64,000 nt of DNA from Actinokineospora auranticolor. GTDB lineage: Bacteria; Actinomycetota; Actinomycetes; Mycobacteriales; Pseudonocardiaceae. This document shows, piece after piece, positions 35,923-54,404 of the stretch. Under the pieces are notes generated by a model. The model made no database searches. It worked only from the letters and a program-made list of their open reading frames with translations, and was not told the DNA's origin. Location of the stretch: the NCBI RefSeq assembly GCF_002934265.1, contig NZ_PTIX01000005.1, positions 310,001 through 374,000 of the forward strand. The letters are read 5' to 3'. Each line of letters starts with the position of its first letter. The first letter of the stretch is position 1. The position numbers and the translations under genes were made by a program.

Positions 35923-36978
35923 GTTATCGAGTCGGGCGTCCGCGTGGTGGACATGGGTCGAATAACGTCGAACAACGAAAGTCGTCGATTTTTGGAAAAG
36001 AAAACAACTTTGGTTGACAGGTCGTGTTCTTGGGTGGTCACCGATTGTCGGAATCGGCCCGGCAACCGCAGTTCAGACGCGGTCGCCGGGCCGGATCCCG
36101 ACACCGCCACCGGGTGCGCCGCGCCTGCGCCCGGAGACGGTGTCGTGCCTGATGAGGTATGGTCGCGAGCGACAGTACACGGGGTTTCCGGCCCGTGCCG
36201 CGCGGCCGGTCGACCGGCCGCGGGCGGCGCGCCGGGGTCCTGGGATAACGACCGGAGATCGTCCGACTCTTGGCAAAGGAATTGTCGACCGTGTGGCCGG
36301 AATGGCTGGATCGAGCGTCTGCCCGCGCGCCGGAGGTGGGCCCGCCTGTCGCCGGAATGCGCTTTTCGGCGAATACCGACCGATCGGGACGGAAACAGTC
36401 GCCCCGCACATCGGTGGTCGCGCTCCCGGTGCGCGTGGAAATCCCGGTTGAACGCCACATGAAGCTCTTCCCGGCCGAGAATTCCCGGGCCGTTCCCCGT
36501 GTCGCCATCCGGCGCTCGGGCGACCCGATTCCCTCAAACGATTGTTTACGACTGGCCAGTAGGTTATTTGCTGACCGTGTTTCGCCTTTGTTCACCCGTG
36601 GAGAGGATGGTCGCTCACTGTGACATCAGACCTGGTCAACCACGGGTGCGCTGGGGCGCGTCATGTGTGGGCTACTCCCAATGCTACGGCGAACTACGAT
36701 GTTCAGGCCAGTACGCCTGGCCCGCGCGACTCGGGCACGCGCGCCGATCACGGTCACGTTGCGTGCTCTCATCGGGTGCTATCAATATCTGGACCGCGGT
36801 CGTGGAGTGCGTTGACCGCATGATCGTCACTGGCTATAGTCGCCGTAGTTGGTTTGTTACTCACATTTAGATGTCGGGTTTTCGGGGCGGCGAGATGACG
36901 TCGGGGTCGGGGCCGCTCGGGTGAGTGGGGCCTTCGCGCCCGGTCCGCACGGCAATCCATCTGGGGAGGCATTTCTTC
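35923..36978. other. 1-kb intergenic region without a convincing gene
   Basis: The region lies between the divergent sensor kinase and PAS-LuxR genes. GC falls noticeably between about 35,960-36,050 and 36,500-36,880. Short ORFs here show no third-position GC bias and no family features. A TTGACA-like hexamer near 36,012 lacks a well-placed -10. A 22-bp palindrome is listed separately. The region may hold long leader RNA, regulator sites or decayed sequence. Confidence 0.55.
36201..36222. promoter_or_regulatory. Perfect 22-bp palindrome
   Basis: All 11 base pairs match around a central TCGA, and the sequence is almost entirely G+C. It sits about 290 bases upstream of the sensor kinase and 760 upstream of the PAS-LuxR gene. 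It could be a dimer-binding operator or cruciform. No role can be assigned from sequence. Confidence 0.4.
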
Positions 36979-37668
36979 ATGAGCAGCGCTGTCTTGGGTC
37001 CGATCCCCGTACCGGCCGAGCGGGCGGCGGCCGTGGTGGACCGGCGCGGTGAGCGGGAGCGCCGCCCGGGCGCGGAGCTGGCCGACGTCGGCATCGCCAA
37101 CCTCGACCCCGACCTGCGGGTGCTGGAGGCCAACGGGAGTTTCCTCTACCAGTTCGGCCGGTCCGCCGCCGAGGTGTGCGGGCAGGAGTTCCGCGAGTTG
37201 GTGCACGCCAGCGTGGAGCAGGTGGTGGTGCAGCAGCTGACCCGCCTCGGCGAGAACCGCCGCGACCGCTTCACCGCCCGCCTCGTCGGCCTGCGCCCCA
37301 ACGACGGCGTGTTCTTCGGCGACCTGACGGCCATCGCCGTCCGCCCGGACAACGGCCAGGTGAGCAAGATCGTCCTGCTGACCCGCCCCGACCGCCCCGC
37401 CGACCCCCAGCGCACCCCGTCGGGCAAGCGCAAGGCCTTGAGCGAGATCGACGCCCGGGTCCTCGAAGGGGTGGCGGCGGGCAACACCACGGTGCAGTTG
37501 GCGGCGAAGCTGTTCCTCAGCAGACAGGGCATCGAGTACCACGTGGCCGCGATGCTGCGCAGGTTCAAGTCGCCCAACCGGTCGGCCCTGGTGGCCAAGG
37601 CGTACTCGGAGGGCATCCTGCGCATCGGCCAGTGGCCGCCGCAGGTGACCCCCGACTACGTCAGCTGA
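36979..37668 (+). CDS. PAS-LuxR family transcriptional regulator
   Basis: A 229-aa protein. An N-terminal PAS domain (about 30-145, with ADVGIANLDPDLRVLEAN and GQEFRELVHAS) is joined to a C-terminal LuxR helix-turn-helix (about 160-215, ALSEIDARVLEGVAAGNTT). This architecture is that of PimM-type regulators, which activate macrolide and polyene clusters. ATG 36,979 is preferred over GTG 36,925 because GGGGAGG lies 9 bases upstream. Its 3' end overlaps the convergent HEAT-repeat gene by 8 bases. It is the probable cluster-situated activator and marks the right edge of the macrolide cluster. Confidence 0.9.
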   Translation: MSSAVLGPIPVPAERAAAVVDRRGERERRPGAELADVGIANLDPDLRVLEANGSFLYQFGRSAAEVCGQEFRELVHASVEQVVVQQLTRLGENRRDRFTARLVGLRPNDGVFFGDLTAIAVRPDNGQVSKIVLLTRPDRPADPQRTPSGKRKALSEIDARVLEGVAAGNTTVQLAAKLFLSRQGIEYHVAAMLRRFKSPNRSALVAKAYSEGILRIGQWPPQVTPDYVS

Positions 37669-40579
37669 CCGCCCGCGCGCCTTCTCTCAGTTCGGTGATG
37701 AGCCGCCGCGCCTCCCGCAGACAAAGATCACTCCACCGCGCGAGACCGCGGGCGGCCCGCACCCGGATGTGCCGGGCGACCACGTCGTCCCACGCCACCT
37801 CCCGCACCACCATGGCCGCGGCCTCCCGGTAACCCCGGTGCGTCGCGGCCATGGCCTCGGCACAGCGGACCCGCTCGATGGCGCTGTTGTCGGGATCCTC
37901 GGCCAACTCCCGCAACGCCACGGCCGTTTCGTAGGGCCGGTACTCACTCACGGCCTCAAGCACCCGCCGACGCGCACACCGGTCGTCGGTCTCGGCGAGG
38001 TCGTCCAGCACCCGAACCATCCGCGCCCGCGTATCGGGCCGCTCATGCGCCATCACCCGCGCCGCCTGGGCCCTGACGACTCTCGGCAGCTCGACGTCCT
38101 CGACGATCCGCAGCAAGGCTTCCGCACCCCGCTCGCGCCCTTCGTCGCCGAACCACATCAACTCCTGCCCCGCCCGCCACCGCAACGCGGGCCTACCCTC
38201 CGCCGCGATCCGCGCCAGCACCCGTACTCCGGCGACCTGATCGTCATCCGCCCGGTCCCGCATCATCACAGCGGCCTTCCACCGCACAGCGAAGGCCCGC
38301 GTCTCGTCGTCCCGCATCGCTCGCACGCCAGCCAGGCCGTCTCGGTGACGAAGTTCGAACAGAACCCGCACCCGCTCCTGATCCGCCGTGCCCGGGTCCT
38401 TTGCCTTGTCCCGCAACCACTCAACAACCTCGTCCGGCACCTCAGGCGCGAGATGCCACAACATCCACCCCGCGTCCTCTTTGACCTCGCGGGGTGCCTC
38501 GGCGCGCTGGAAGTCGGCGAGGCTGTCGGCAAGGATCTGCCTCCGCCAAAACAGCCCCATCTTCGCCTGCGCCCAACGAGCATCGAACCCACCGATGTCA
38601 TCCAGCGCCGCAGCAGCCTCCTCAACATATCGAGTGGACAGATCGGCGAGCTGAGATGCCGCGTCGATGCGCTCGGACTTGGCCGCTTCCGGCGCGGCGA
38701 AGAGGTTTCGGAGCACTTCCACCACATCGGTCCTCAGTGGAACCTCGCCCCAGATGTCCGCCGTCGGGATCCTGTGCGCGACCGGCAGCGTCCGATCGAC
38801 GAGCAACGTCCGCTGCGCCTCACGACATGCCACCCCCGGCAGACCGGACACCAGTTGGGAGCGGTCGACACCTCGTGTCGTGGGGTCGTCGAACAGTGAC
38901 TGCGATGTGACCAGAACGTTTGCGGCTTGCCGCCTCTGAAGGTAGACAAAACTCTGATACACGTGTGCACGCTCAGCGGCGGTGTAGAGGTCATCGCGCA
39001 AGAAGCGGCCGATCAAGGATAACGTCAGGTGCGCTTGGTTCTTGTCCGTGGCCAGGACCTTGGCCGCGGCGACGCATCGGTTGGAGACCGGTTGTCGGCC
39101 GTCGATGAGGATCGTGGTCCAGTCCTCGAGCGGCGGCGTGTCGTCTGTGTGCGCATCGGCGTTCAGGGCGGCCAGCGCTACTCGTGCGGAATCACTGGCA
39201 CTCTGCCTGACGTCCGGGTGTTCGACTGCGCTACGGAGAGCGGCGATGACGTCCACGCCGAGGGCAGCGGTCTGGGAGGCCCGATCGTGCCAGTGCGTGC
39301 TGTCGATGTCCTCAGGCAACAGGTTCTGGATCGTGGTCGGGTCGGTGAGCGCGATCGCGGCGCGGAATCTGGTGATCGGCCTTGTTGAGCGGTCCTGGAC
39401 GACAGTCAGGAGCAAGGGTTGCGCACTGCTGCCAAGGTTGGTCATCGCGTCGTGCGCGTTCCAGATCTGCTCGGAACTCAAGCGATCGGTCGGGAGGGTC
39501 TCTTCGATCGTTCTGGCCAGGTCCAGCTTTGTCGGACCCGCGAGTTCCCTGAGGCTGTGGACCCAGTGGGCAAGTTCCGTGTGGTGCACGCGGTCGGCGC
39601 GGAGGTAGGCGATGGCGTCCCGTGCCGCTTCCCCGTGGAAGCGGTCGCCCAGTTCGACCAGACCATGCAGCGCGATGGTGTACGCGCGGTGGTTCGGCTC
39701 GACTTGGCGCAAAGTGCCCCGAAAACACTCCGCCGCGCGTTCGACGTCGCATGCATCCGCTCGGGAGAACTGCGGAAGCCTCTCGTCGTCGAGTTGCGCC
39801 ATGTCGGCGTCGCGAAGGCCCATCAGGTCAAGCAGAGAAGCGTAGGCTTCCTGCTGCCGTGATCCGACGTTGGTCAGTTGTCGCCAAGCACTGATACGGC
39901 TTTTGAAAGCGTATGTCGTGGTCGCTATGTCATGGAGGGCGGCCACTGCTTCGGGGTGGCAGTCGGTTCCCAGGCTTAGTAGTTCCTTGGCGGTTCGCAC
40001 TCGGACATCGCAACTCAATCGATGATCGGCCAAGTCCGCGCGCAACACCGCACGGGCCGAGTCGCGGTGTTCGCCGCCGAGGGCAGCCAATCTCCCAAGA
40101 GCCAGTGGGCGTTCCCAGTCGTCGGCCAGTGGGTGGTCGATGATCGACCGGAGTTCTTGAGCCACGGCGGCGTGGTGCTCCGGGCTGAGACTGGCCAGCG
40201 TGTGCGCTGCCCACAGCCGCTCATTGGTGTCGGTCGTGGACGAATCCAACACGGCGTGGAGAACGCCTGCGGCGTCCTTGTGGAACGCGGGGCCTAGCGC
40301 GATCAGGGCTCGTGCGACAAACCACTTGCGTGCTCTGATGGCAGTTTCGTCCGCGAGCGCGAGCATGCGGTGTGCGGCTGACTGGCGGTAGCGGGTTCCG
40401 AGAGTGCCCAGTGCCTCAACAGACCTGAGCCGTTCGAACCAGGAGGCTGTCCTGTCGTCTGCGCACGTGGTGAGTAGTTCAGCCGTGTCCCGCTGCCGAC
40501 CAAGCGCCGCGAGTTTCTGAGCGCACTGTTTCGGGTGGACGTTGTTGGACTTGTCGTTCGTCATGATCGCCGTGAACAC
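37661..40579 (-). CDS. HEAT-repeat solenoid protein, probably the C-terminal part of the NACHT protein
   Basis: A 972-aa all-helical protein built almost entirely of 30-40 residue HEAT-like repeats with recurring AA..L..LG and R.EA...L patterns. There is no signal peptide or membrane helix. Start is GTG 40,579 or ATG 40,564; neither has a recognisable ribosome binding site. The reading frame is the same as that of the NACHT gene upstream, separated only by TAG (40,589-40,591) and three sense codons. Repeat spacing continues through that stop. It therefore looks like the ligand-sensing half of a NACHT-HEAT protein of about 1,690 residues, cut by a nonsense codon. Translation as a separate protein cannot be excluded. 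Confidence 0.85.
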   Translation of the reverse strand: MFTAIMTNDKSNNVHPKQCAQKLAALGRQRDTAELLTTCADDRTASWFERLRSVEALGTLGTRYRQSAAHRMLALADETAIRARKWFVARALIALGPAFHKDAAGVLHAVLDSSTTDTNERLWAAHTLASLSPEHHAAVAQELRSIIDHPLADDWERPLALGRLAALGGEHRDSARAVLRADLADHRLSCDVRVRTAKELLSLGTDCHPEAVAALHDIATTTYAFKSRISAWRQLTNVGSRQQEAYASLLDLMGLRDADMAQLDDERLPQFSRADACDVERAAECFRGTLRQVEPNHRAYTIALHGLVELGDRFHGEAARDAIAYLRADRVHHTELAHWVHSLRELAGPTKLDLARTIEETLPTDRLSSEQIWNAHDAMTNLGSSAQPLLLTVVQDRSTRPITRFRAAIALTDPTTIQNLLPEDIDSTHWHDRASQTAALGVDVIAALRSAVEHPDVRQSASDSARVALAALNADAHTDDTPPLEDWTTILIDGRQPVSNRCVAAAKVLATDKNQAHLTLSLIGRFLRDDLYTAAERAHVYQSFVYLQRRQAANVLVTSQSLFDDPTTRGVDRSQLVSGLPGVACREAQRTLLVDRTLPVAHRIPTADIWGEVPLRTDVVEVLRNLFAAPEAAKSERIDAASQLADLSTRYVEEAAAALDDIGGFDARWAQAKMGLFWRRQILADSLADFQRAEAPREVKEDAGWMLWHLAPEVPDEVVEWLRDKAKDPGTADQERVRVLFELRHRDGLAGVRAMRDDETRAFAVRWKAAVMMRDRADDDQVAGVRVLARIAAEGRPALRWRAGQELMWFGDEGRERGAEALLRIVEDVELPRVVRAQAARVMAHERPDTRARMVRVLDDLAETDDRCARRRVLEAVSEYRPYETAVALRELAEDPDNSAIERVRCAEAMAATHRGYREAAAMVVREVAWDDVVARHIRVRAARGLARWSDLCLREARRLITELREGARAVS

Positions 40580-40588
40580 GTCAGCGCA

Positions 40589-42748
40589 CTACTGGTGCGA
40601 GTCGGTATCGAACCTGGCCAAGCCTGCTGCCGCTACGAAACGCGCGGCGTCGGAGGCCAGCGGACTCTCGATGACGGTGACCAGCACCTCGACGGCCCGG
40701 GCTCTCGAGGCTGACCCGAAGGTCGCCAGCACGACGGCGGCGTTGCGGACGTCCACCTCGTCCGCTCCTGGATGTACCAGGATCGCGCGGAGTCCGCATT
40801 CCGCCGTAGCCTGTTCGTCGGTCCCGCAGTCGCACAGTGCTTCTGCGGCAGCCAGGCGGTCGGTTACCTGGGCACTGGGGTCGTTCACCACCATGCGCAA
40901 GAGTTCAACGGCTTCGCTTGCCTGTTCGCCGCGCAAGCGGGTCGCGAGCGCGGTGGCTGCTTCGATGCGCGAAGGCCACGGTGCGGCCACGTCGCGACTG
41001 AGTCCAGTGAGCCACGAAACCAAGAGCGGGTGGTGACTGGCGCGGCTGACCTGACTCAGGATCCGCCGACCCCCGAGGCCGGTCGTCATGGCCCACGCTC
41101 GGGCCGTGTCCAGGAACGCGTCCACGGGTGGCGCGGTGGCGGGGATGTGACCCGCGAGGAGGCGGGCGGCCAGCAGGTGTGCCGTCGCGTCTCCCTCGTG
41201 GAGATGGACCAAGACGGGATCGGCTTCTGTCGGGTTCAAGCGGCAGTAGTGCAAGAGCACTGCGCGGGCGTGGTGGCCCCGTTCTTCGTCGCGGGCCGCG
41301 TGGAGGAGGCGGCGGAAGGCGTCGTGGGGTGGGGTGAAGGGGGTGGGGAGTTGGCGGGCGTCGGCGGTGGCAGCTAGGTGTTCGGCGAAGCTGTGGTGGA
41401 GAAACCGTAGGTTGCCGCCTTGGCGGGGGCGGGTTAAGGGGCCCACCGAGGTTAGGTAGGCGAGTAGGGCCTCTTCCCACTCGCCGGTGGGGGAGAGGTG
41501 GGTGGTGACCCAGGTCTTTGCCGCCTCGACCAGCGGAGTGTCGGACTCGAGCCGAACGCGGCCCAGGTGTTCCAGGAGGGAGTCGCGGATGGAGTCGAAC
41601 TGCGGGGACTTGGTGGTGCGCAGGTAGCGGAGGTACGCCTCGTACAGCTCGTACTTGTTGTCCGGGAGTGGGCGGTCGCCGTGTTCGGTGAAGATGATGG
41701 CGGCGATGGTCGCCAGCAGCGGCACCGTGACCATCTCGCCCAGGTAGGCGTCCCGGATCTGGCGTAGGAAGCGGGGCGCGCTGTCTGGGGTGTCGGTGAA
41801 CCAGCTGTGGGCGAAGGCGGTAAGGGCCGCCTCGTCGAAGGGTTGGAGTTCGTACCGGGTGGCGCCTGATCGTTGGAGTGGGGCCAGGGCGGCGCCTTCC
41901 AAGGGGCGGGTGGTGAGGATGACTCGGTAAGGGGAACCGGGGGCGGACCAAGCGGCGAGGACGGCGACCAGGCGGTCGCGGTCGCCCGCGTCGGCGACCT
42001 CGTCCAGGCCGTCGACCAGGAGGAGCCAGCGGCAGCCCGCTACGCGGTGGTGGAGGGCGGACGGTGCCAGCGGGGTGGCCAGGTACGCACCGTATTCGTT
42101 GTGGACGCTGTCGGCCAGCGATTGGGTGAAGGGGAGGTGCAAGCGGGCCGCCAGTTCGGTGGCCGATACTCGGATCGGTATGACCGGTTCCGTCAGTGGC
42201 TCGTCCGTGGTGGTGAACCAGCGCCCTGCGGCCTCCGCCGACAGGCGGCGGGAGAGAGTCGATTTTCCTTGGCCTGGGCCGCCTACGACGATCAGGTGGT
42301 CATCGCGGTCCAAGGCTTCACGCACGGTGTGCGTGGGTGGTCGGACCGAGGGACGGGTCACCGGGCGGGGGACCACCTCGACCAAGCCGCTGCGGCCGTC
42401 GAGAACCGGGGTCTCGCGCGGCTGCTCCGGCTGCTCCTCCGTGCCCGCGCCGAGATCCTGGCGTACGTACACGGTCGCCAAGGAGGGGCGACGCGCACCG
42501 GGAAGCCGGTACGGCAACTCCGTCGCCGCCGCGACTTGGGCGCGCAGCAACGACTCCACCTCGGCGGGCAGCCGCGCGTCCCAGGTCCCGGCCGCCGCAT
42601 CCGGCACCGGTGCCTCGCCCGGGACCACGAAGTCCCCGTGGACCGTGAGGTTCGCCGCCTGCACCACGTATCCCGAGACGTCGCCCGCCGAGTTGGTCGA
42701 ATCCACGGCTCCCGAGCATAGGGACATCCCGCGGCGAAGCGAACTCAC
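40589..42748 (-). CDS. NACHT-domain STAND NTPase with HEAT repeats
   Basis: A 719-aa protein. Residues 15-45 carry a beta-strand motif ending in GYVVQAANLTVHGD, seen at the start of many actinobacterial conflict proteins. The NACHT domain (about 150-420) has Walker A GGPGQGKST near 157-165, Walker B LLLVDGLDEV near 241 with the NACHT acidic residue, and a sensor-like arginine in LTTRPL. HEAT repeats begin near 520. The frame ends at TAG and resumes in phase as the HEAT protein. GTG 42,748 overlaps the preceding gene stop as GTGA; a second GTG 42 bases on has TATGCT upstream. NACHT proteins detect phage factors in bacteria. Here it ends an operon of Hsp70 and dynamin-like genes. Confidence 0.88.
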   Translation of the reverse strand: MSSLRRGMSLCSGAVDSTNSAGDVSGYVVQAANLTVHGDFVVPGEAPVPDAAAGTWDARLPAEVESLLRAQVAAATELPYRLPGARRPSLATVYVRQDLGAGTEEQPEQPRETPVLDGRSGLVEVVPRPVTRPSVRPPTHTVREALDRDDHLIVVGGPGQGKSTLSRRLSAEAAGRWFTTTDEPLTEPVIPIRVSATELAARLHLPFTQSLADSVHNEYGAYLATPLAPSALHHRVAGCRWLLLVDGLDEVADAGDRDRLVAVLAAWSAPGSPYRVILTTRPLEGAALAPLQRSGATRYELQPFDEAALTAFAHSWFTDTPDSAPRFLRQIRDAYLGEMVTVPLLATIAAIIFTEHGDRPLPDNKYELYEAYLRYLRTTKSPQFDSIRDSLLEHLGRVRLESDTPLVEAAKTWVTTHLSPTGEWEEALLAYLTSVGPLTRPRQGGNLRFLHHSFAEHLAATADARQLPTPFTPPHDAFRRLLHAARDEERGHHARAVLLHYCRLNPTEADPVLVHLHEGDATAHLLAARLLAGHIPATAPPVDAFLDTARAWAMTTGLGGRRILSQVSRASHHPLLVSWLTGLSRDVAAPWPSRIEAATALATRLRGEQASEAVELLRMVVNDPSAQVTDRLAAAEALCDCGTDEQATAECGLRAILVHPGADEVDVRNAAVVLATFGSASRARAVEVLVTVIESPLASDAARFVAAAGLARFDTDSHQ

Positions 42749-43849
42749 AGCAGGTCCGCGAGGAACTCCTCGTACTGCCGCCGCGCGAAGCGGATCGCGT
42801 TGGCGGTCTTCGGGGGGACCGTGGGGTCCAGCGCCAGGGTGGACCAGTGGTCGATGCGGGTCTCGACGTACTCGATCAAGCCGGGGGCGTCCGCGGGTCG
42901 ACCCAAACGGTCCGACAGCGAGTCGCCGTGTTCGCCGGTGGGGCGGAGGAGTTCGGCGGCGTCGGCGGGGCTCAGGGTGAGGGCACCGTCGTAGTGGTCG
43001 GTGAGGACCCGCAGGGCCTGGAAGTGCTGGGTGTGTGAGAGTTCGAGGGTGGTGATCTCGGACTTGAGTGTGTCCAATGTGGACTGCAAGCGTGCGGAAC
43101 CGTTGGTGGTGAGGGTGTTGGTCCGGGAGAGGGTGTGGGCGACCTTGATCAGGTCCGCGCGCCGTCCGAAGTGGTCGGCCAGCAGGGTGCGGAATCGGTT
43201 CAGGCCACTGCGGTTTGCCAGCTCGGTGCGCAGGGCTGCCACCGAGTCGACGCCGGCGCGGGTGAGGTCGCAGGCCAGGACGATGCCGTACTGGCCGAAT
43301 CGCTCCAGCAGGCGGGTGCGGGCGGGTGGGGGTAGTGCGATGTCGTCGTAGTCACGGGTTCCGAATAGCGGTCCGCGGGCGACGCGGCGGGCGAGGTTGT
43401 CGGGTGGTGTCTTTGCCAGCATTGTGAGGTCGTGGAGGTCTTGGTCGTCGCATACGCCTGCCGCGGCGGCCACGATTCCCGCGAGATGAGTCGCGCACCT
43501 CTAGGTGGTCGATCGAACTCAGGAACGCCTGTCGGTCTCCGATGTTGGTGGCGAGCGAACCCAGTTCGGCCAAGTCGCGGGTTTCCGTGTGACCGTCACG
43601 GAAATGCACGGTCAGGCCCGGATCGCCCTGGCGCAGAACGGTGATTGTGAAGGTCAGCTCTTGCACGCCGGTCGGCGCCCGGTACGCCCCCAGCAGCGCG
43701 TTGACCAAAGTGGACTTACCCGAGCTGACCCGACCGACCAGTGCCACCGCCATCGGGGCGCGCAGCCGCGCGAGCCGCTCGTCGATCCCCGCCTCGGGAC
43801 CGACCACTGCCTTGACCCGCTCCAGCGCCGACGCCAGCTGCGGCCTCAC
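42745..43849 (-). pseudogene. Dynamin-like GTPase B, broken by internal deletion and frameshift
   Basis: The start GTG 43,849 overlaps the preceding gene stop as GTGA. The N-terminal frame gives a G-domain with P-loop GRVSSGKSTLVNALLG and a G2-like threonine in ELTFTIT, running to IDHLEV. It then turns into arginine-rich translation at about 43,475-43,505. A different frame resumes with AGVCDDQDLHDLTMLA and continues to the stop as a helical stalk typical of actinobacterial dynamin-like proteins. The G3 (DxxG) and G4 (NKxD) motifs are absent, so a few hundred bases have been lost together with the phase. A functional GTPase is not expected. Confidence 0.8.
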
Positions 43850-45583
43850 GCCGTGGTCCGGTCCGCCAGCGCCGACACCTCGGTCTCCAACGCCGAGACC
43901 TCCGCCAGCACCCGCCGCAGCTCGGCCTCGCGCGCGGCCAGCACGGCCAACTCGCGCTCGGCACCGGTGCGCGTGCGCGCCTCCCGCAACCCGACCAGCG
44001 ACGACGTCAACGCCTCGTCCTCCTGGCGGGCCAACGCCGTGATCTCCGCGACCGCCGCGCGGGTCAGCTCTCGCATGCGCTCTTGCACGCCCTCGATGAT
44101 CGCCCGGTGCTGGTCCCGGCGCAGCGGTCGCAGCTCCGCGACCAGGCTCGCCCGCCGGGCCTGCGCCTCCTGGTGCCGGGCCGCCCGCACCGCGCGCGAA
44201 CGCCCCAGCAGCCCGCCGACGACCGACCCGAGCCACAGCCCCACCGGGCCGAGCAGCGCCGCCCCGATCGTCGCGCCGATCCCCGCGCCCAGGCCGCCGT
44301 CGCGGATCTGGCCGAGCGCGGACCCGGGCAGGTTCTCGGTGCCGAGCCGCCCGGTCACGGTCCGCTCGCCGGGCAGGTCGAGGTCACGGCTTTCCTTGCC
44401 CGTCAACGAAAGCCCGGTGCTGCGCGCGGTCTCGGTGAACACCGCGCGCACCCGCTTGGTCATCCGCCGGTTGAGGTCCGACACCAGGTCGGTGGTCTCC
44501 TCTCCGATCCGGTCGAGGATCGGCTGCGGCTCGGCCAGCATCCGCTCGTCGAACAGGTCGCCGGTGTCGACCTCGTCCCAGATCGCCTCGACGCCGGACC
44601 GGGCCCGTTCCCGCAGGTCCGCGGCCACCGCGTCCAGGTCGCGCCGCAGCGCCTCCGTCCAGCCGCGCCCTTCCCGCAGTTCGGCCGTCCGGCGCTGGGC
44701 CCGGACGATCTCGTCCTCCAGCCGCTGCGCCTCCTCCGCCGAACTGGCCCGCAACGCCGCCGAAGCCGCCTCGACGGGACGCAGCAACGCTTCCGCGCCC
44801 GCGCGGGCCGAACCCAGCGCGTCGCCGAGCACCACCCGCACCCGACGCCGCGCCAACGTGTCCCACAACAGGTCCGACAGGCCGTCGAGGTTGCCCAGCT
44901 CCCGGTCCTCGTCGTCGCCGAACTCCAGGTACGCGTGGTGCGCGGTGCTCGACACCGGCACCACGACGATCCCCTCCGCCGGACGACCGGTCACCTCGGC
45001 GAGCTTGGCCCGGGTGTTGGCCAGCCGCGTGGCCTGGTCGACGGCCGCGTCCGCGCGGGTCATCACGAACACCGTGCCGTCGTCGTCGCCCTCCGCGCGC
45101 GCCGCCGACGTCGCGCGCGCCAGGAACCGGAGTTCGCTCTCCATCAGCGGTTGCGTGGTGTCGGTGACGAACAGGACCGCGTGCGCGCTCGGCAGGAACG
45201 CCGTGGTCGCCGCCGTGTGCGCCTCGTAGACGCCGCCGACGCCGGGAGTGTCCACTGATCTCCCGCCGCTCGACGTCGCCGTCCGGGCCTTCCAGCACCG
45301 CCGTGATGTGCTCGGTCTCGGCCCAGCCGACCGTGGTCACGACGCTGGTGGTGAACGTGATCCCGACCGGCAGCAGCGGCTCCCGCTCGTCGAGCAAGGC
45401 GCTGAGCAGACTGGACTTCCCGCGCTTGAACTCCCCGCACACCATCACGACCAGCGCCGAGTCGGCCATCCGCCCACGCGCGTCGCGCAACCGCTCGGCG
45501 GAAACCCCGTCGGCGGCGGACAGCAACTCGTCCAGCACCGCACCGACGCGATCCCGCAGCGCCTCGAACGCTTCCGCGCTCAC
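43846..45583 (-). pseudogene. Dynamin-like GTPase A, broken between G2 and G3
   Basis: GTG 45,583 overlaps the Hsp70-like stop as GTGA. The first frame encodes the P-loop CGEFKRGKSSLLSALL and the G2 region GITFTTS, then reads to VERREIS. At about 45,255 the phase shifts and the next frame opens directly at the G3 motif DTPGVGG, followed by G4 TRAD and a long helical region with a glycine-rich hydrophobic hairpin (about 44,220-44,290), likely the membrane paddle. About 30-40 residues normally separate these points, so a short out-of-phase deletion is likely. It is otherwise complete, and GTPase B follows in the operon as its usual partner. Confidence 0.8.
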
Positions 45584-46898
45584 GACGCCACCCCGACCGC
45601 GAGCCAGCGCCCGCCCACCAGGTGGTCGCCGGGCTCGACGTGGGTCTGGAGCAGCTTGCCCGCCGAGTGCGCGGTGAGGTTCCACAGCGTCCCGTCGGCC
45701 AACCGCACACGGGCCAACGGCGTGTCCTTCACGTACTTCTTGCCCGGTCGCACCAGCCAACGCAGCAGCGTCGCCCCGTCCGGCGGCAGCTCCCACGACA
45801 GCGGGTGCGCCCCCTTCGGCATCGCCACCGGCGGCAGGACCCGCGCCCCCGACGCCGCCCACCACGCCGCCGCGCCGTTCACCACCGCCAAGGTCGGGTC
45901 CGGCACGTGCCGCAACGGCAGGCCCAGCCGGGAGTTCAGCGTGTCGGTCACGACCGGCATCCGCGAACTGCCACCGACCACCACGACCGCGTGCACGCGG
46001 GACTGGTCGACCCCGCAGCGACGCAACAGGTCCCGGCAGCAGGTGACGGTGCGCTCCATCAGCGGCGCCACCAGGTCCGCCAACCCGCGCCGGGCCAGCT
46101 TGAACGCCGGGGTGCTCGGCAGCAGGAACTCCTCGGCCTCCGCCGTGTCGGTCAGCTGGTGCTTCACGCCGCGCGCCAGGTCGCCGACGGCCAACCGCAG
46201 CCGCAACGCGCCCGCCTGGTCCGTCGCGCTGTCCCGCAGCGGCGCCAACCACTCCGCCGCGTCCCGGTCCACGGCCGCCGCCAGCGCCGCGTCCACGTCA
46301 CGGCCGCCGCAGTCGTCGAGGGCCGCGTACCCCAGGACGGTGTGGCCGTCGTCCTCGACCCGCACGAGCGCCGTGTCGAAGGTGCCGCCGCCGAAGTCGT
46401 GGACCAGCAGCAGCTCGCCCCGCCGCTGCTCCGGCGCGGCGCGCGCGGCGGCCACGGGCTCGGGAGCAGCTCCACGGTGCCCAGCCCGGCCGCCGCCGCC
46501 GCCGAGATCATCAGCGCCCGGCGCGGGTCGCCCTGGGCGTAGGAGGCGGGCACGGTCAGCACCGCCCGCCGGGACGGGGCGATCCGGTCGGCTTCGGCCT
46601 TGATCGCCGACAGCACCGCCGTGACCAGTTCCTCGACGCGCAGCGACCGGCCACCCAGCCGCACCGGCGCGCGCTGCCCCAGGTCGCGCTTGAACTCCGT
46701 GCGGTACGCGGCGGGCGCGGCCCGCTTGCGCCGCTCGGCCGCGGTGCCGACGAGCAGGCCCTCCTCGGCGGCGAACACCGCCGACGGCCACACCGCCGAC
46801 CCGCCGGACTCCACGACCGGCCGCCGCTCCCCGCCGCGCACCAGCACGGCGGAGGACGTACTGGTCCTGAAGTCCACCACCAGCACCACGTCGTCCAT
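45580..46898 (-). pseudogene. Hsp70-like ATPase with one single-base frameshift
   Basis: ATG 46,898 shares a base with the upstream stop. The N-terminal frame has the actin-fold phosphate-1 region (VVDFRTSTSSAV) and runs to GLGTVELLP. Near 46,460-46,470 one G or C is missing. With it restored, the protein continues as PEPVAAARA, HDFGGGTFDTALV (phosphate-2) and VVVVGGSSRMPVV (adenosine loop) to a C-terminal region of about 100 residues. Everything else is intact over about 439 residues, so this may be a sequencing or assembly error rather than true decay. There is no classic DnaK substrate domain. Its partners are a second Hsp70-like protein and two dynamin-like GTPases. Confidence 0.82.
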
Positions 46899-48881
46899 CA
46901 GCCCGCCTTCCCTGACGAGTCCACTGTGGAATCCGGGAACGCGTCGTCGGTCAACCCGTAGAGCGACCCGCCCTCGTACCCCGTCACCGCCAGCACCCGA
47001 CCCGACGGGTGGAACGCGGCCTCGGTGCGCTTCCCCCGGGACGGGAGGCGGCACAGCACCGCGCCCGTGCGGGTCTCCAGCACCGTCACCCCGCCGGTGC
47101 CGCGGTCGGTGTCCTCGGCCACGACCGCCACCAGCAGACCGCCGTGGCTGACCGCGAGACCGTTGACCGGGTTGATCTTGAACGTGCCGATCCGGACGAA
47201 CCCGGCGTCGCTGCGCCGGTCGAGGTCGAAGACGTCGACGGACTCACCCTGCCTGCGCACGGCCAGGTAGCGACCGCACGCGCTGACCGCGCACCGCTCC
47301 AGCGTGGAACCGATCCGGTCCGAGCGGCCCGCCGCGAGGTCCCGCACCGCGTCGAGGGTGACCACGCGGTCGGGGCCCGCGAACCAGACCATGGCCGGGT
47401 AGCCGACGAAGGCCGAGAACTCGTGCTCCACCTTGCCGGTCGCGAGGTCGACGACCTCCACGCGCTGGCTCCCGGCGTAGCCCATGGCCAGCCGACCGCC
47501 GTCGGGGCTGAAGGCCAACCCGCCCGGGGGAGTCCAGCGCCGGATCGTGCGGACGATCTTCTTGGTGGCCACGTCCCACAGCCGGACGTGCCGCTTGCCC
47601 GTCACGACCGCGACCGTCCCGCCGTCCGGGCTGATGGCCACGGTGTTGGTGGTGGCGTCGGTCTTCAGGATCGCGCGCGACCCGCCGGGCACCGGCCGCA
47701 CCCCGATCCGGGTGTAGTGGTCGGCGACGAAGCGCGTGCCGTCGGCGCTGAAGGAGATGTGGTGCAGCCACTCACCGCCCTTGCGCGGGGACAGTTCCTT
47801 GATCTCGACCGGCTTGGCCGGCACGTCGTCCGCGCCGGGCGCGCCCGTCCGCGCGGTGGCCGCGGGCACACCGGAGTCGATCATCCCGGCGACCGGCTCC
47901 GGGAACCGCTCCAGCGTCCCGGCCCGGTCCGCCACCAGGTCCCACACCGTGTCGTCCGGCTGGCGGACGCGCAGCAGCACGGCGTTCTCGGCGAACTCGT
48001 CACCGACCGCGACGGTCCGCTCGACGACCTTGGCCACCCCGTCGGGCAGCTCCCACGCCAGCACGCGCCTGCCCAGCGCGGGCGCGTCCGCGCGCTGCGC
48101 GCGGAGTCCAGGACCCAGCAGGTGGCGCCGCACAGCGCGGCCAGCGCGGGCTCCGGGGCGCGCAGCACCCGGTTGGACCGGCGCCGCAGCGCGGAGTCGA
48201 TCGCCGGGGTCACCGCCGCGCCGCCCGCCACCAAGACCGCCCGGACCGCGCCGCGGTCGGTCCCGCCCGCGGCCAGCAGGCCCTCGGCGGCCTGGGCGAG
48301 GTCGCGGACGACCGGGCCGACCAGTTCAGCCGCACGAGCGAGGTCGTGGCCGTGGCGCCGACGTCGTGCACCACCACGACTCCGGTGTCGACGTCGTTGG
48401 TGTCGATGGTGTCCAGGACCCCGACCGCGGTGGCCAGGGGGCGGGGGAGCAGTTCGACCTCGTCGAACCCGGCCGCCTCCGCCGCCGCGACCAGCGCGTC
48501 CGAACCGGACAGTCCGGGCGGGTAGGTCAGCAGCAGGTTCTCCGGGCGGTCCTCGGCCTGTGCCACCAGCAGGGCGAGGAAGTCGCACAGGATGTCGGCG
48601 CGCGCGAACTCCCGGCCGTCCAGCGTGATCGTCTCGCCGATGTCGGCCGGATCGGGCAACCCCCGCCGGTACGCCGCGGGCGCCGACCGCTTGCGCTACT
48701 CGGCCGCCGACCCCCACAGCGCCTGACCGGTGCCCGGGTCCACGAACAACGCGGCCGGTCGGGCGACCACCCCGGTCCCCGGTTCCTTCAGCGGCGTCGC
48801 GCCCCCCGCGCGCACCACCGCCGCCGTGCAGGTCGCCGACCCGAGGTCGACGACCAGCGTGGCCTGTTCTCGCCGTGCCAC
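46898..48881 (-). pseudogene. Hsp70-like domain fused to a WD40-type propeller, multiply disrupted
   Basis: GTG 48,881 begins an actin-fold start (LVVDLGSATCTAAVV). At 48,696-48,698 an in-frame TAG interrupts AAE-RKRSAPAAYR, where the paralogue downstream reads AAERRKRAAPAAYR. Near 48,327-48,340 an out-of-phase deletion removes about 90 residues between phosphate-2 and the ELVGPVVRDL helix. Near 48,088-48,100 another single-base loss occurs. The remaining frame, 46,898-48,133, is open and encodes a WD40-like propeller (HISFSADGTRF, VAISPDGGTVA, LAFSPDGGRLA, AAFHPSGRVLA). The C-terminal 410 residues could still be translated only if internally initiated. Confidence 0.8.
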
Positions 48882-49192: not shown

Positions 49193-49262
49193 GCTGTATC
49201 GCCCGTCCGGTGGTTGACGATGCCCACCGTGTCGTGTGGTCGGCGGGAGAGGGAGGCGTCTG

Positions 49263-52200
49263 GTGGCGGGCATGGGGTCTGGCGGGATTCCGGACACGGT
49301 GGTGGCGCGGGCGGGGCGGCTCTTCGAGTTCCTGGCGCGCAGCCAGCAGCTGCGGACCTCCGCGCCCCGCACCACCGACAGCTACGAGTCCGTGCTGTGG
49401 CTCGGGGAACTGCCCGAGCACCCGGCCGTCCGCCGCGCGCCGGAACCGGGCGCGCTGCTGTTCGAAGTGGCCCGTGTGCCGCGGGTCCCGGCGCCCGAGC
49501 CGCCTGAGGTCCTCGACCGCTGGCTCGACGGTCCGGTCGACGAACCCGGCGCGCGGCCCCGACTCGTCGACACCGCGGTGGTCCACGGCGTCGAGCGGTC
49601 GCGCGCGGACGACCCCGAGATCGCCACCGCCTACGACGCCTGGCTCGTGGACTGGTCCGCGTGGGCCGGCGCCGAACTCGCCCAAGAGCCCGCGCGCGCC
49701 GTCTACAACCAGGTCTTCGCCACCTACGTCGCCGCCACCGACCACTCCGACGAACTCGAACTCGTCGTCGCCGTCGGGTGCCTGTCCTGGAAACCGGGTG
49801 CCGCGATCCGCAGGCACCTGATCACCGCGCCCGCCGCGATCACCTTCGACGACGACAACGGCCGCCTCGCCGTGCGCGCCGGGGAGCGCCTCGACGGCGC
49901 CGCGGTGGAACTCGACATGCTCGACCCCGACCTCATCGCCGACGCCCAGCACGTCCGCCAGGTCAGGGCCGAGCTGGCGGACGCTGACGGGGAGGTGCTC
50001 GACCGCGAGGTCGCGGGCGCGCTGGCCCGCAGGCTCACCCACGCCATCGACGGCGACGGCGAGTACACCGACGACGACGCGCCCCGGCCGCCGGGCAGGC
50101 ACGCCGCGACGTCGTTCGCCCCCGCGGTCGTGCTGCGCAAGCGGTCCCGGCAGGGCCTGGTCGACATCCTCGACACCATCTCCCGGCAGATCACCGACAC
50201 CGGCACCGTCCCGGACGGGCTGCTGCCGCTGGTGGACCCGGACCACCGCCCCGCGAGCACCCGCTCGTCCGAACCGGGCGCGCTGGTCGAGGTCGACGAC
50301 GACCCGTTCCTGCCGCTGCCGGTCAACGAGGTGCAGCTGCGCATCCTGCACCAGGTGGACAGCAAGGCCCAGACCCTCGTGCAGGGCCCGCCCGGCACCG
50401 GCAAGACGCACACCGCCGCCGCGCTGCTGTCGCACCTGCTGGCCCAGGGCAAGCGGGTCCTGGTCACCGCGCAGACCGACCGGGCGCTCAAGGAGGTCCG
50501 GGCCAAGCTGCCCGAGTCGATCGCGGCGCTGGCCGTGTCGGTGGTCGGGTCGTCGCGTTCGGACCTGGCCGACCTCAAGGTCGCCGTCGAGCGGATCAGC
50601 CACACCGCCGCCGAACACGACCCGGAGGCCGCGCGCCGCGCCATCGAGGACCACGTCGCCGCCATCGACGAGCTCCGGCGCCACCGCGCCGCGCTGCGCC
50701 ACCGGCTGGTCGAGGCGCGCGCCGCCGAGGTCGCCGAGCACGACGTGCGCGGCCACCAGGGCACCCTCGCCGAGATCGCGCGCCGGATCGAGGACGAGCG
50801 GCCGCGCTTCGCCTGGCTCACCGACCTGGTCGCGGTCGGGGCCGCCGACGAGCCGCCCGTCGACCAGGACACCGCCATCACGTGGCACCGCCTCCTCCTC
50901 GACCGCGCGCTGATCGCCGACGAACCCGAGGCCCGGCAGCGCCTGCTCGCCCTGGCGGAACTCCCCGAGCCGGACGCCTTCGCCGCCCTCGTCGCCGCCG
51001 AGCGCGCCGCGACCGCCGAGGCCGACCGGTTCGCCGACCTCGCCGGGCACCAGGCGTTCCCCGCCGTCCAAGCGCTCCCCGCCGCCACCCGCGCGGACCT
51101 GCGGCAGCGGCTCAGCGGCCTCGCCGACGAGGCCGACGAACTCGCGCGCCGCCGCGAGGACTGGATGGGCGACGCGCTGACCGACGTCCGCACCGGCCGC
51201 GCCGCGATCTGGCACTCCCGGGCCACCCAGGTCCAGCGGATCACCGCCGAGGTCACCCCCGTCGTCGACCTCCTCGGCCCGCTCACCTCGGTCACCGCGA
51301 ACGGCGAGGTCGGCGCGCTCGCGCAACTCGCCAGGTCCCTGCGCGAACACCTCGCGGGCGGCGGGAAGCTCAAGACCAACCCGGACGGCACGGTCAAGGC
51401 GGGGGCGTTCGCGCCCAAGGTCGTGAAGCTCGCCCAGCCGCTGTTCGACGGTGTCCGAGTCAACGACACGCCCCCGACGACCACCGACCAGCTGGACGCC
51501 TTCCTCCGGTGGGTCGAGGCGACCAGGTCGCTCGACGCGCTCGACCGCGCCTGGCCCGAATCGGTGCGCATCCCGGCCGAGGACACGCTGCGCGAACGGC
51601 TCGACTGGCACACCACCGAACTAGCCCAGCTGACCCGGGTCCTCGACCTCGCCGTGGCGCTGGAGCGCGAGGAGCGCGAACTGGAGGCGCTGGGCCTGCC
51701 GCGGCCCGAGTGGCACGACCTCAACGCCGTCCGCGCCTACGCCCGGCTCGTGGACGCCGCCCACGCGTTCGACGCCCGCGCCGCCGCCGGCACGCCCTTG
51801 GCCGCGCTCGCCGACGCGGTCGCCGAGGTCGGCCGGTGGGCGGACGCGGCGCCGTGCGTCCGGGGCATGGTCGACGCGGTCCGCGACCGCGACCACGAGC
51901 ACTACGGCACCCACCACCGCAGGTTGACGCGCCTGGTCGAGGCCCGCGCCCTGCTGGCGCGCCGCGACGAGACCACTGCGCGGCTGCACGCGTCCGCGCC
52001 CGCGCTCCTCGCCGAGGTCGAGTGCGCCCCCGACGAACCCGAGTGGCCCGGACGCCTGGCGGGCTGGACCGCCGCGTGGGCGTGGGCCGCCACCCGCGCG
52101 TGGGTCGCCGACCGGCCGCGCGCGGACGTCAACGCCACGCAGGACGAGGTCACCCGGGTCGACGGCCGCGTCCGCGACCGGGTGCAGCGGCTCGCCGCCG

Positions 52201-54404
52201 AGCGGGCGTGGGCCCACGCGGTCGCCCCCGCCCGGCTCTCCGGCCAGGCCAAGGCGAACCTGCAGCAGTACGCGCAACTGGTGAAGCGCCTGGGCAAGGG
52301 CACCGGCCGCTACGCCGCCCAGCAGCGCGCCGAGATCCGCGCCGCCATGGACCGCTGCCGCGCCGCCGTCCCGGTGTGGATCATGCCGGTGTACCGGATC
52401 GCCGAGCAGTTCGCCGTGCGGCCCGACATGTTCGACGTGGTCGTCGTCGACGAGGCGTCGCAGGCCGGGGTCGAGGCCACGTTCCTGCAGTACCTGGCGC
52501 CGCGGATCGTGGTGATCGGCGACGACCGCCAGGTCTCGCCCACCGCCGTGGGCACCGACCAGCAGCAGATCCGCAAGCTGGCCGACCAGTACCTGTGGGA
52601 CGACCCGTACAAGGCGTCCTGGCAGGACCCCAAGCGCAGCCTGTTCGACGAGGCCAAGATGCGCTTCGAGGGCCTGCTCACGCTCACCGAGCACCGGCGC
52701 TGCGTGCCCGAGATCATCGGTTTCTCCAACCGCATCGCGTACGAACCCGACGGCATCCGCCTGATCCCGGTCCGGCAGTACGGCGCCGACCGGCTGGAGC
52801 CGATCAAGCCGGTGTTCCTCGCCGAGGGCTACGAGCGCGGCGGCGACGGCAACAAGGTCAACCCGGTCGAGGTCGAGGCGATCGTCGACCAGATCGAGAA
52901 GTGCGCCGCCGACCCGCGCTACGACGGCCTCACCTTCGGCGTGGTGTCGCTGCTGGGGCGGGCGCAGGCCACCGCCATCGAGAAGCGGCTGCTCGCCCGG
53001 ATCCCGCCGGAGGAGTGGGCGGCGCGCGACCTGCGCTGCGGCGACTCGGCGGACTTCCAGGGCTCCGAGCGGGACGTGGTGTTCCTGTCGATGGTGAAGG
53101 CTCCCGACCCGGGCAAGCGGATCGGCGCCCTCACCGCCGACCTGTACGTGCAGCGCTACAACGTCGCGGCCTCCCGCGCCAAGGACCAGATGTGGGTGTT
53201 CCACTCGGTCTCGCTGTCGGATCTGGGCAACCCGGAGGACATGCGGTTCCAACTGCTCGACTACTGCTACGGCGTGGCCGGGCGGGCGGCCGCGGGCGAG
53301 GGCGCGACGGCGGGCCCGGTGCCGGAGCACGAGCGGGTCGAACCGTTCGACTCGCTGTTCGAGCAGCGCGTGCACAACCGGCTCGTCGGGCACGGCTACG
53401 CGGTGGTGCCGCAGTACCCGAGCCAGGGCTACCGGATCGATCTCGTCGTGGTGGGCGCCAAGGCCCGGTTGGCGATCGAGTGCGACGGAGACGCCTGGCA
53501 CGGGCCGGACGCCTACGAACGCGACCTCGCCCGCCAGCGCGACCTGGAGCGGTGCGGCTGGCACTTCTTCCGGATCCCGGAGTCGGAGTTCTACCTCGAC
53601 CAGGCCGAGGTGCTGGACCGGTTGTGGGGCGCGCTGCACGCGCTCGACATCCACCCGTCCGGTTGGGTCGACACCCGGCGGGCGACCTCGGGTGCGGTGG
53701 TCGAGCGCACACCGGTCGCCGTGGCGCCGGAGGTGGCCGCGCCGGATATCGCCGTGCCTGTCGAGGCCGAGCGCGATGCGGTCACGCCCGCTGTCGTCCC
53801 ACCGGCGGTCGCCGAGTCCGACACCCCGGTACCCGTTGTCGTCCCGCCGGTCGCGCCGGTTCCGGTGCCCGGTGCCGCCGCGCGCTCAGGCGTCGAGGTG
53901 TCCGAGCCCGCCGAGTACGTGCAGTTCGGTGGCGCGGTCCCGGCGGTGACCGGCGCGTCCCGCGCCGACCTGGTGGCGGGCCTGGAAAGCGTGGTCGCGG
54001 CCGAAGGACCGGTGCTGGGCCAGCGGCTGCACACCGCCTACGTCCGCGCGTCGGGCGGCAACCGGATCGGCAAGCTGATCGCGACCGACCTGAACCGGGC
54101 GATCGGCGCCGCGGTCCGCGCGGGTCGGCTCGTCGAGGACAACCCGCTGGGCGAGGCCGGTGCCAAACCGCGCACCTACCGGCTACCGGACCAGCCCGCG
54201 TTCCGGGTGCGCCACCTCGGTCCGCGGTCCTTCGAGGAGATCCCGCCCGCCGAACTGGCTGCCTTGCTCGACCTGGCCGCGTCCCGTGACCCGGGGGCGG
54301 ACCTCCCGGCGCTGTACCGGACCGCTTTGGAGTTGCTGGGCCTCAAACGCCTCACCGACAACGTCAAGGCACGGCTGAACGCGGCCAACTCCCTGCGCGC
54401 CTGA
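49263..54404 (+). CDS. Large SF1-type DNA/RNA helicase with C-terminal PD-(D/E)XK nuclease-like domain
   Basis: A 1,713-aa protein from GTG 49,263, which has GGGAGG 6 bases upstream; an earlier GTG (49,236) precedes that site. The helicase core of the DNA2/NAM7 type has Walker A QGPPGTGKTHT near 375, a long charged insertion, motif II DEASQAG near 1,062, motif III VIGDDRQVSPT, LTEHRRCVPEI, GSERDVVFLSMV and NVAASRAKDQ. A nuclease-like domain (about 1,360-1,450) has RIDLVV and AIECDGD, as in DUF559/Vsr-like folds with Cys in place of Lys. A proline/valine-rich linker leads to a C-terminal winged-helix-like region. Such fusions occur in phage-defence islands. It is divergent from the NACHT/Hsp70 operon. 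Confidence 0.88.
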   Translation: MAGMGSGGIPDTVVARAGRLFEFLARSQQLRTSAPRTTDSYESVLWLGELPEHPAVRRAPEPGALLFEVARVPRVPAPEPPEVLDRWLDGPVDEPGARPRLVDTAVVHGVERSRADDPEIATAYDAWLVDWSAWAGAELAQEPARAVYNQVFATYVAATDHSDELELVVAVGCLSWKPGAAIRRHLITAPAAITFDDDNGRLAVRAGERLDGAAVELDMLDPDLIADAQHVRQVRAELADADGEVLDREVAGALARRLTHAIDGDGEYTDDDAPRPPGRHAATSFAPAVVLRKRSRQGLVDILDTISRQITDTGTVPDGLLPLVDPDHRPASTRSSEPGALVEVDDDPFLPLPVNEVQLRILHQVDSKAQTLVQGPPGTGKTHTAAALLSHLLAQGKRVLVTAQTDRALKEVRAKLPESIAALAVSVVGSSRSDLADLKVAVERISHTAAEHDPEAARRAIEDHVAAIDELRRHRAALRHRLVEARAAEVAEHDVRGHQGTLAEIARRIEDERPRFAWLTDLVAVGAADEPPVDQDTAITWHRLLLDRALIADEPEARQRLLALAELPEPDAFAALVAAERAATAEADRFADLAGHQAFPAVQALPAATRADLRQRLSGLADEADELARRREDWMGDALTDVRTGRAAIWHSRATQVQRITAEVTPVVDLLGPLTSVTANGEVGALAQLARSLREHLAGGGKLKTNPDGTVKAGAFAPKVVKLAQPLFDGVRVNDTPPTTTDQLDAFLRWVEATRSLDALDRAWPESVRIPAEDTLRERLDWHTTELAQLTRVLDLAVALEREERELEALGLPRPEWHDLNAVRAYARLVDAAHAFDARAAAGTPLAALADAVAEVGRWADAAPCVRGMVDAVRDRDHEHYGTHHRRLTRLVEARALLARRDETTARLHASAPALLAEVECAPDEPEWPGRLAGWTAAWAWAATRAWVADRPRADVNATQDEVTRVDGRVRDRVQRLAAERAWAHAVAPARLSGQAKANLQQYAQLVKRLGKGTGRYAAQQRAEIRAAMDRCRAAVPVWIMPVYRIAEQFAVRPDMFDVVVVDEASQAGVEATFLQYLAPRIVVIGDDRQVSPTAVGTDQQQIRKLADQYLWDDPYKASWQDPKRSLFDEAKMRFEGLLTLTEHRRCVPEIIGFSNRIAYEPDGIRLIPVRQYGADRLEPIKPVFLAEGYERGGDGNKVNPVEVEAIVDQIEKCAADPRYDGLTFGVVSLLGRAQATAIEKRLLARIPPEEWAARDLRCGDSADFQGSERDVVFLSMVKAPDPGKRIGALTADLYVQRYNVAASRAKDQMWVFHSVSLSDLGNPEDMRFQLLDYCYGVAGRAAAGEGATAGPVPEHERVEPFDSLFEQRVHNRLVGHGYAVVPQYPSQGYRIDLVVVGAKARLAIECDGDAWHGPDAYERDLARQRDLERCGWHFFRIPESEFYLDQAEVLDRLWGALHALDIHPSGWVDTRRATSGAVVERTPVAVAPEVAAPDIAVPVEAERDAVTPAVVPPAVAESDTPVPVVVPPVAPVPVPGAAARSGVEVSEPAEYVQFGGAVPAVTGASRADLVAGLESVVAAEGPVLGQRLHTAYVRASGGNRIGKLIATDLNRAIGAAVRAGRLVEDNPLGEAGAKPRTYRLPDQPAFRVRHLGPRSFEEIPPAELAALLDLAASRDPGADLPALYRTALELLGLKRLTDNVKARLNAANSLRA

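Follow-up and report, generated by a model that had tools for sequence, protein, structure and literature searches.

A NACHT-HEAT gene interrupted by an in-frame TAG, probably through decay, downstream of four damaged Hsp70-like and dynamin-like genes in Actinokineospora auranticolor

Introduction

Bacterial NACHT and antiviral STAND proteins (bNACHT, Avs) combine a central NACHT NTPase domain with a C-terminal repeat region. A tripartite architecture of NACHT/STAND defence proteins is described in passages of PMC10907252, and bNACHT25 is covered in passages of PMC12169576. GTPase-centred conflict systems form another described group, which according to excerpts of Kaur et al. 2020 (PMC7159879) bring paired GTPases and an HSP70-like protein together in one neighbourhood. 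There the enzymes are TRAFAC GTPases with tubulin or other partners, and the word "dynamin" is absent from the main text.

Here, we analyse a stretch of 64,000 nucleotides of Actinokineospora auranticolor DNA (the window), in which genes resembling both groups stand side by side. One gene, according to Pfam, has the central NACHT NTPase and C-terminal repeat region of the bNACHT and Avs proteins. The genes upstream of it pair GTPases with HSP70-like proteins as in the neighbourhoods described in PMC7159879, with the difference that all four genes are broken here and that the likeness is one of neighbourhood content. Judged by its domains, the NACHT-HEAT gene is of a known kind, that of bacterial NACHT/STAND proteins with repeat sensors, its own family being without a named model. 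A phmmer search of the NACHT half against the PDB gave no solved-structure match at E<=0.01. The EruA model (NCBIfam NF058535) was matched with 38.4 bits against a cut-off of 1000, over profile positions 71-212 of 1318, and thus below its cut-off; no mention of EruA was found in the literature among the matches listed. PADLOC returned weak, short matches only, with PDC-S52 covering 46 residues in the HEAT half (23.1 bits) and, in two relatives, weak GajB matches of ~17 bits. The literature searched yielded no report of defence activity for this NACHT-HEAT family.

A single stop codon interrupts the NACHT-HEAT frame

Translated as a single frame, the sequence from 42748 to 37661 contains only two stop codons: codon 720 and the terminal codon 1696, a TGA (Table 1). 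An earlier note on this DNA had described a TAG ending a 719-aa NACHT frame, followed 12 bases on and in the same phase by a 972-aa HEAT frame, and both coordinates and description are correct: GTG 40579 lies in phase with the NACHT frame, 12 bases from the first base of the TAG and 9 bases after it. A NACHT NTPase domain is present at residues 152-319 (Pfam PF05729, 35.9 bits against a cut-off of 26.7), and HEAT repeats are recognized downstream of the TAG (Pfam HEAT_2, PF13646, 28.8 bits against a cut-off of 27.7). The region before residue 140, searched for an N-terminal effector domain, gave no match in Pfam or NCBIfam. The putative start of the NACHT part, GTG 42748, overlaps the stop of the upstream gene, and the alignments of the first set of relatives start between residues 2 and 60.

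Table 1 Features of the interrupted NACHT-HEAT gene and the genes upstream of it (positions in the window)
Feature	Coordinates	Strand	Remarks
In-frame TAG	40589..40591	-	codon 720 of the NACHT-HEAT frame
Upstream part (719 codons), comprising the N-terminal region, the NACHT NTPase domain and the initial HEAT-like repeats	40589..42748	-	
Downstream part: 975 HEAT-repeat codons and final stop	37661..40588	-	longest separate frame 972 aa from GTG 40579
Dynamin-like GTPase 2, broken (start approximate)	42745..43860	-	frame change near 43489-43496; ~127 residues missing relative to L155
Dynamin-like GTPase 1, broken (start approximate)	43846..45588	-	frame change near 45256; roughly 30-45 residues missing
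Hsp70-like gene B, broken	45580..46898	-	frame change near 46455-46464
Hsp70-like gene A with WD40-like C-terminal part, broken (start approximate)	46898..48881	-	in-frame TGA 48698-48696; frame changes near 48324 and 48106

For the 360 residues surrounding the site, AlphaFold2 run on a single sequence, with the TAG read as a residue, predicts a run of helices and places the stop, modelled position 181, inside a helix spanning positions 176-192, in a block with a mean pLDDT of 86. The best of five models was used (mean pLDDT 82.1; 40.7-73.4 for the remaining four). The predicted structure agrees with the proposal that the TAG replaces a residue within a helix.

Relatives encode NACHT and HEAT regions in one frame

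A scan of an initial contig set with the HEAT part gave no match. The HEAT part was then searched in 297 genomes of the same family, yielding 52 matches at E<=1e-20 with the own genome included. From each of the 51 other matching genomes one locus was taken as a relative and further copies, present in some genomes, were left out; the loci from genomes G141, G274 and G287 are not the top-scoring copies of their genomes, and five short-frame loci (L114-L118) were chosen deliberately as candidates for a conserved split. With the full frame as tblastn query and an X at the stop, 44 of the 51 relatives display a single open frame of 1583-2056 codons across NACHT and HEAT, the shortest being L145, whose match reaches only residue 1584. 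NACHT and the C-terminal repeat or sensor region thus share one polypeptide in these 44 relatives, whereas in the window copy the HEAT region is severed by the TAG. The remaining seven (L071, L072 and L114-L118) are broken elsewhere, by frame changes or deletions. The codon-720 region is open in 50/51 relatives and deleted in L114, where a segment apparently covering codon 720 belongs, in our reading, to a different register of repeats. A stop at codon 720 was accordingly found in none of the 51 relatives, L114 being uninformative.

In all 44 one-frame relatives the column of the TAG is occupied, by Arg in 27, Val in five, Gln and Leu in three each, Thr and Phe in two each and Lys and His in one each, and the flanking columns are conserved, with Glu in 44/44 at 712 and Phe in 40/44 at 725. 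The HEAT repeats therefore run continuously across the TAG, as had been proposed. Nearest relatives share ~60% identity in the NACHT part and 30-45% in the HEAT part.

When named genomes were scanned with the NACHT half, 20 loci (L167-L186) were recovered, from Saccharothrix, Actinokineospora, Actinophytocola, Lentzea, Nocardia, Actinosynnema, Kibdelosporangium, Amycolatopsis, Actinomadura and Sphaerisporangium. Fifteen of these duplicate the first set, and the five new ones (L169, L180, L181, L185 and L186) all form one frame. All 20 are open across codon 720, and 18 consist of one frame of 1700-2155 codons, in contrast to the window copy with its stop at this codon; the other two, L182 and L183, are broken at other sites. 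The full-length proteins of Saccharothrix, Actinokineospora, Lentzea, Amycolatopsis and their relatives have the same domain order as the window gene and are collinear with it. Sixteen of the named loci align with almost all of the window gene at 37-43% identity, as do two more at 28%, while L182 and L183 match only partly because they are broken; in the best segment of the NACHT half, identity is 50-62% in 18 loci and 34% in two. The search for fused, full-length homologues suggested by the earlier note thus returned a single frame in 44/51 relatives and 18/20 named loci. Since the relatives are one-frame and none has a stop at codon 720, the ancestral state was most simply one protein.

Breakage is not confined to the window copy, as seven of the 51 relatives' loci are disrupted, none at codon 720, which points to recurrent inactivation in the NACHT-HEAT family; this frequency fits genes that are often gained and lost. 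Phase variation was considered, as L071 and L118 both have frame changes near residues 450-474; the sites differ and no common repeat tract was seen. The A. auranticolor genome also encodes a second NACHT protein (L060), 39% identical and with an open frame of 1193 codons.

Sequence retention on either side of the stop

The downstream frame is open over 975 codons and retains most conserved positions, an observation that speaks against decay. The stop is accordingly either of recent origin or accompanied by continuing selection on some product. Near-invariant alignment columns are kept at 174/183 positions in the NACHT core (residues 60-560; 14/44 relatives equal or worse), 37/40 in residues 561-719 (5/44), 20/25 in residues 721-1210 (3/44) and 36/41 in residues 1211-1690 (6/44). 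By mean identity over residues 60-719, the window copy is 14th from the bottom among the 45 sequences. Relative to its NACHT-core similarity, the downstream half has diverged further than that of any other among the 45 sequences (z = -2.37); this signal is weak, because the intact relative L144 follows closely (z = -2.26) and because the relatives, too, keep fewer HEAT columns (mean near-invariant retention 0.90 and 0.93 in the HEAT part versus 0.96). Taken as sequence comparison, these values fit a fairly young stop with some relaxation of constraint after the TAG, weakly on their own. The suggestion that the mutation is recent consequently holds in part: the downstream half is open and recognisable, but it is also the most diverged of its set and its neighbours bear larger lesions.

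Four upstream genes are damaged

The earlier note had missed that the four genes upstream of the NACHT-HEAT gene are damaged as well. In total they carry five frame changes, one in-frame TGA and two deletions within GTPase domains. The frame switches were revealed by a coding-frame model based on GC content at codon positions. As a control, the run-on of the upstream frame to its stop was determined for all 28 same-strand changes between segments of more than 150 nt in the window. Run-on exceeds 100 nt at five sites (111 nt at 48324, 222 nt at 48106, 296 nt at 46463, 869 nt at 45256 and 134 nt at 43489), all within 42.7-48.9 kb, and the largest value among the other 23 is 87 nt; the 100-nt threshold was picked after the frames had been seen, and site 48324 barely passes it.

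Loci L105, L106, L107 and L155 served as open comparators. As low-stringency tblastn produced many low-complexity matches, we used only rows confirmed by default masking or by Pfam, among the matches listed. Open relatives exist for both dynamin-like genes and for Hsp70-like gene B. Residues 79-204 of the L155 protein align with positions 43858-43496 of dynamin-like gene 2 and residues 332-588 with 43491-42760. Dynamin-like gene 1 likewise matches in two pieces, both with L106 (residues 29-119 at 45562-45281 and 170-298 at 45255-44851) and with L107 (residues 26-108 and 163-626); the size of its deletion is put at roughly 30-45 residues, L105 and L155 giving the lower end of this range. Alignment of Hsp70-like gene B with L105 pairs residues 42-196 with 46907-46455 and residues 194-481 with 46464-45601. 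The Pfam domain Dynamin_N is matched at positions 2-167 (gene 1) and 1-167 (gene 2) in the open relatives; the pieces of window gene 1 match positions 1-47 and 106-166, leaving 48-105 unmatched, and window gene 2 matches only positions 1-72. For Hsp70-like gene A, the relatives compared are less similar than those of the other three genes, and a search of 100 genomes with its WD40-like part at E<=1e-20 recovered the window itself only.

Locus L155 has an entirely open, co-directional set consisting of one Hsp70-like gene that carries WD40 repeats, one further gene and a pair of dynamin-like genes, so that a similar Hsp70/dynamin-like group is intact elsewhere. None of the 11 loci tested has a NACHT-HEAT gene beside an Hsp70/dynamin-like group. 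Because the two were not found together in these loci, they may be separate systems that adjoin by chance here.

Explanations for the interrupted frame

The stop at codon 720 is a disabling lesion when set against the intact orthologues, 44/51 of which form one frame. Very probably it is a nonsense lesion, and the window gene a decayed member of the actinobacterial NACHT-HEAT (NLR-like, STAND-class) genes, located at the 3' end of a decaying run. The earlier note had offered a nonsense mutation in a protein of ~1,690 residues as one of its options, and this option is the one favoured by relatives that are made in one piece and, among those examined, have no stop at codon 720. In its normal form the gene is one open frame of ~1,700 codons, encoding a NACHT NTPase switch and, behind it, an extended superhelix of HEAT repeats that, by analogy with other STAND proteins, may serve as the sensor. 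The TAG would end translation within the first HEAT repeats, and the cell would then make no more than a NACHT protein of 719 residues that lacks the greater part of its sensor. The gene is the last in a run of co-directional, presumably co-transcribed genes. The four members ahead of it, a pair of Hsp70-like genes and a pair encoding dynamin-like GTPases, carry lesions predicted to be disabling; for this reason the function of the whole run has apparently been lost or is on the way to being lost, and loss of function is likewise suggested by sequence for the NACHT-HEAT gene itself. With the relatives intact and four upstream genes damaged, an ordinary decayed gene is indicated rather than a new split or readthrough protein.

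A split receptor would produce two proteins by termination-reinitiation at GTG 40579, a free HEAT sensor and a separate NACHT switch acting as a two-subunit NLR. We judge this very unlikely, even though an in-frame start codon lies 9 bases past the TAG, both halves are still open and recognisable, and the HEAT part keeps 56/66 near-invariant columns. A split at codon 720 is absent from the 51 loci (L114 uninformative) and the 20 named loci. In line with the earlier note, neither HEAT start has a match to a ribosome binding site: the duplex energy is 0.0 kcal/mol for GTG 40579, which thus has no Shine-Dalgarno-like match, and -1.7 kcal/mol for ATG 40564, which has next to none. Both values are weaker than the mean of 100 start-like codons within the same frame (-3.84, sd 3.00), although this measure is a weak one because the helicase gene's listed start at 49236 scores 0.0 as well. 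The candidate starts are not conserved as such, column 724 (GTG 40579) holding Val in 24/44 and Met in 1/44 relatives and column 729 (ATG 40564) Leu in 38/44 and Met in 1/44. Moreover, the break would fall within a predicted helix of a repeat, and the neighbouring genes are broken. The position of GTG 40579 could permit some termination-reinitiation, and low-level reinitiation there is a remaining doubt. The TAG-terminated, 719-residue NACHT protein might alternatively be retained, for instance as a free-running or dominant-negative switch, with only the HEAT part dead. The NACHT core is not unusually diverged, both in its near-invariant columns and in the identity rank of residues 60-719, but the same pattern is expected from a recent stop; none of the 51 loci ends at codon 720, and the upstream gene overlapping the longest NACHT frame is broken, which makes retention extremely improbable.

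An organism without a stop at codon 720, its sequence misread or misassembled, is highly improbable as well, although, judged from the assembly alone, a base-call error at this one codon keeps a small probability. Only one codon is at issue and the assembly is a draft of 61 contigs, but completeness of the genome is rated at 100% and contamination at 0.12%, neighbour deletions of roughly 30-45 and ~127 codons are no base-call errors, and none of the remaining 23 same-strand frame changes examined in the window is a break of that kind. Programmed or suppressor-dependent readthrough of the TAG would restore a full-length protein of the form that the relatives encode, from a frame that is intact on either side of the stop. 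Several observations oppose it and leave it exceedingly unlikely. No examined relative has the stop. The search for a suppressor tRNA suggested by the earlier note gave two pattern matches in the own genome, one a tRNA-Arg(tct) and the other no tRNA according to ARAGORN, so that no tRNA-CUA was found by this one exact pattern, run without a positive control and blind to a deviating tRNA; ARAGORN detected no tRNA or tmRNA in the window. The 92 bases from the stop onwards form no stable structure (z = +0.84, with 163/200 shuffles folding at least as well). TAG ends three of the 14 window genes whose ends were examined, and hence serves as an ordinary stop here. The nonsense lesion remains our preferred reading.

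As a damaged copy of an NLR-like gene, the locus alone is of little weight. It presents a case of a NACHT-HEAT gene decaying beside a decaying Hsp70/dynamin-like group, and it cautions that adjacent collinear genes should not be called a split receptor before relatives have been checked.

Genomic setting

The locus is, to judge from comparison of gene content, accessory. No clean empty site was found around the helicase relatives in genomes G015 and G007: when 16 window-gene queries (15 in native frame) were compared with 19 kb around each helicase, only the helicase matched. The window helicase-like gene itself (49236-54404, + strand) is large and intact, encoding 1722 aa, and is divergent from the broken genes. 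Its relatives are 73% identical in G015, one of 15 other genomes of the same genus, where the neighbourhood differs, and 51% identical in G007. At the opposite end, a LuxR-like gene (36925-37668), which has an 82% relative in G002, converges with the HEAT frame (37661-40588), and their 3' ends overlap by 8 bases.
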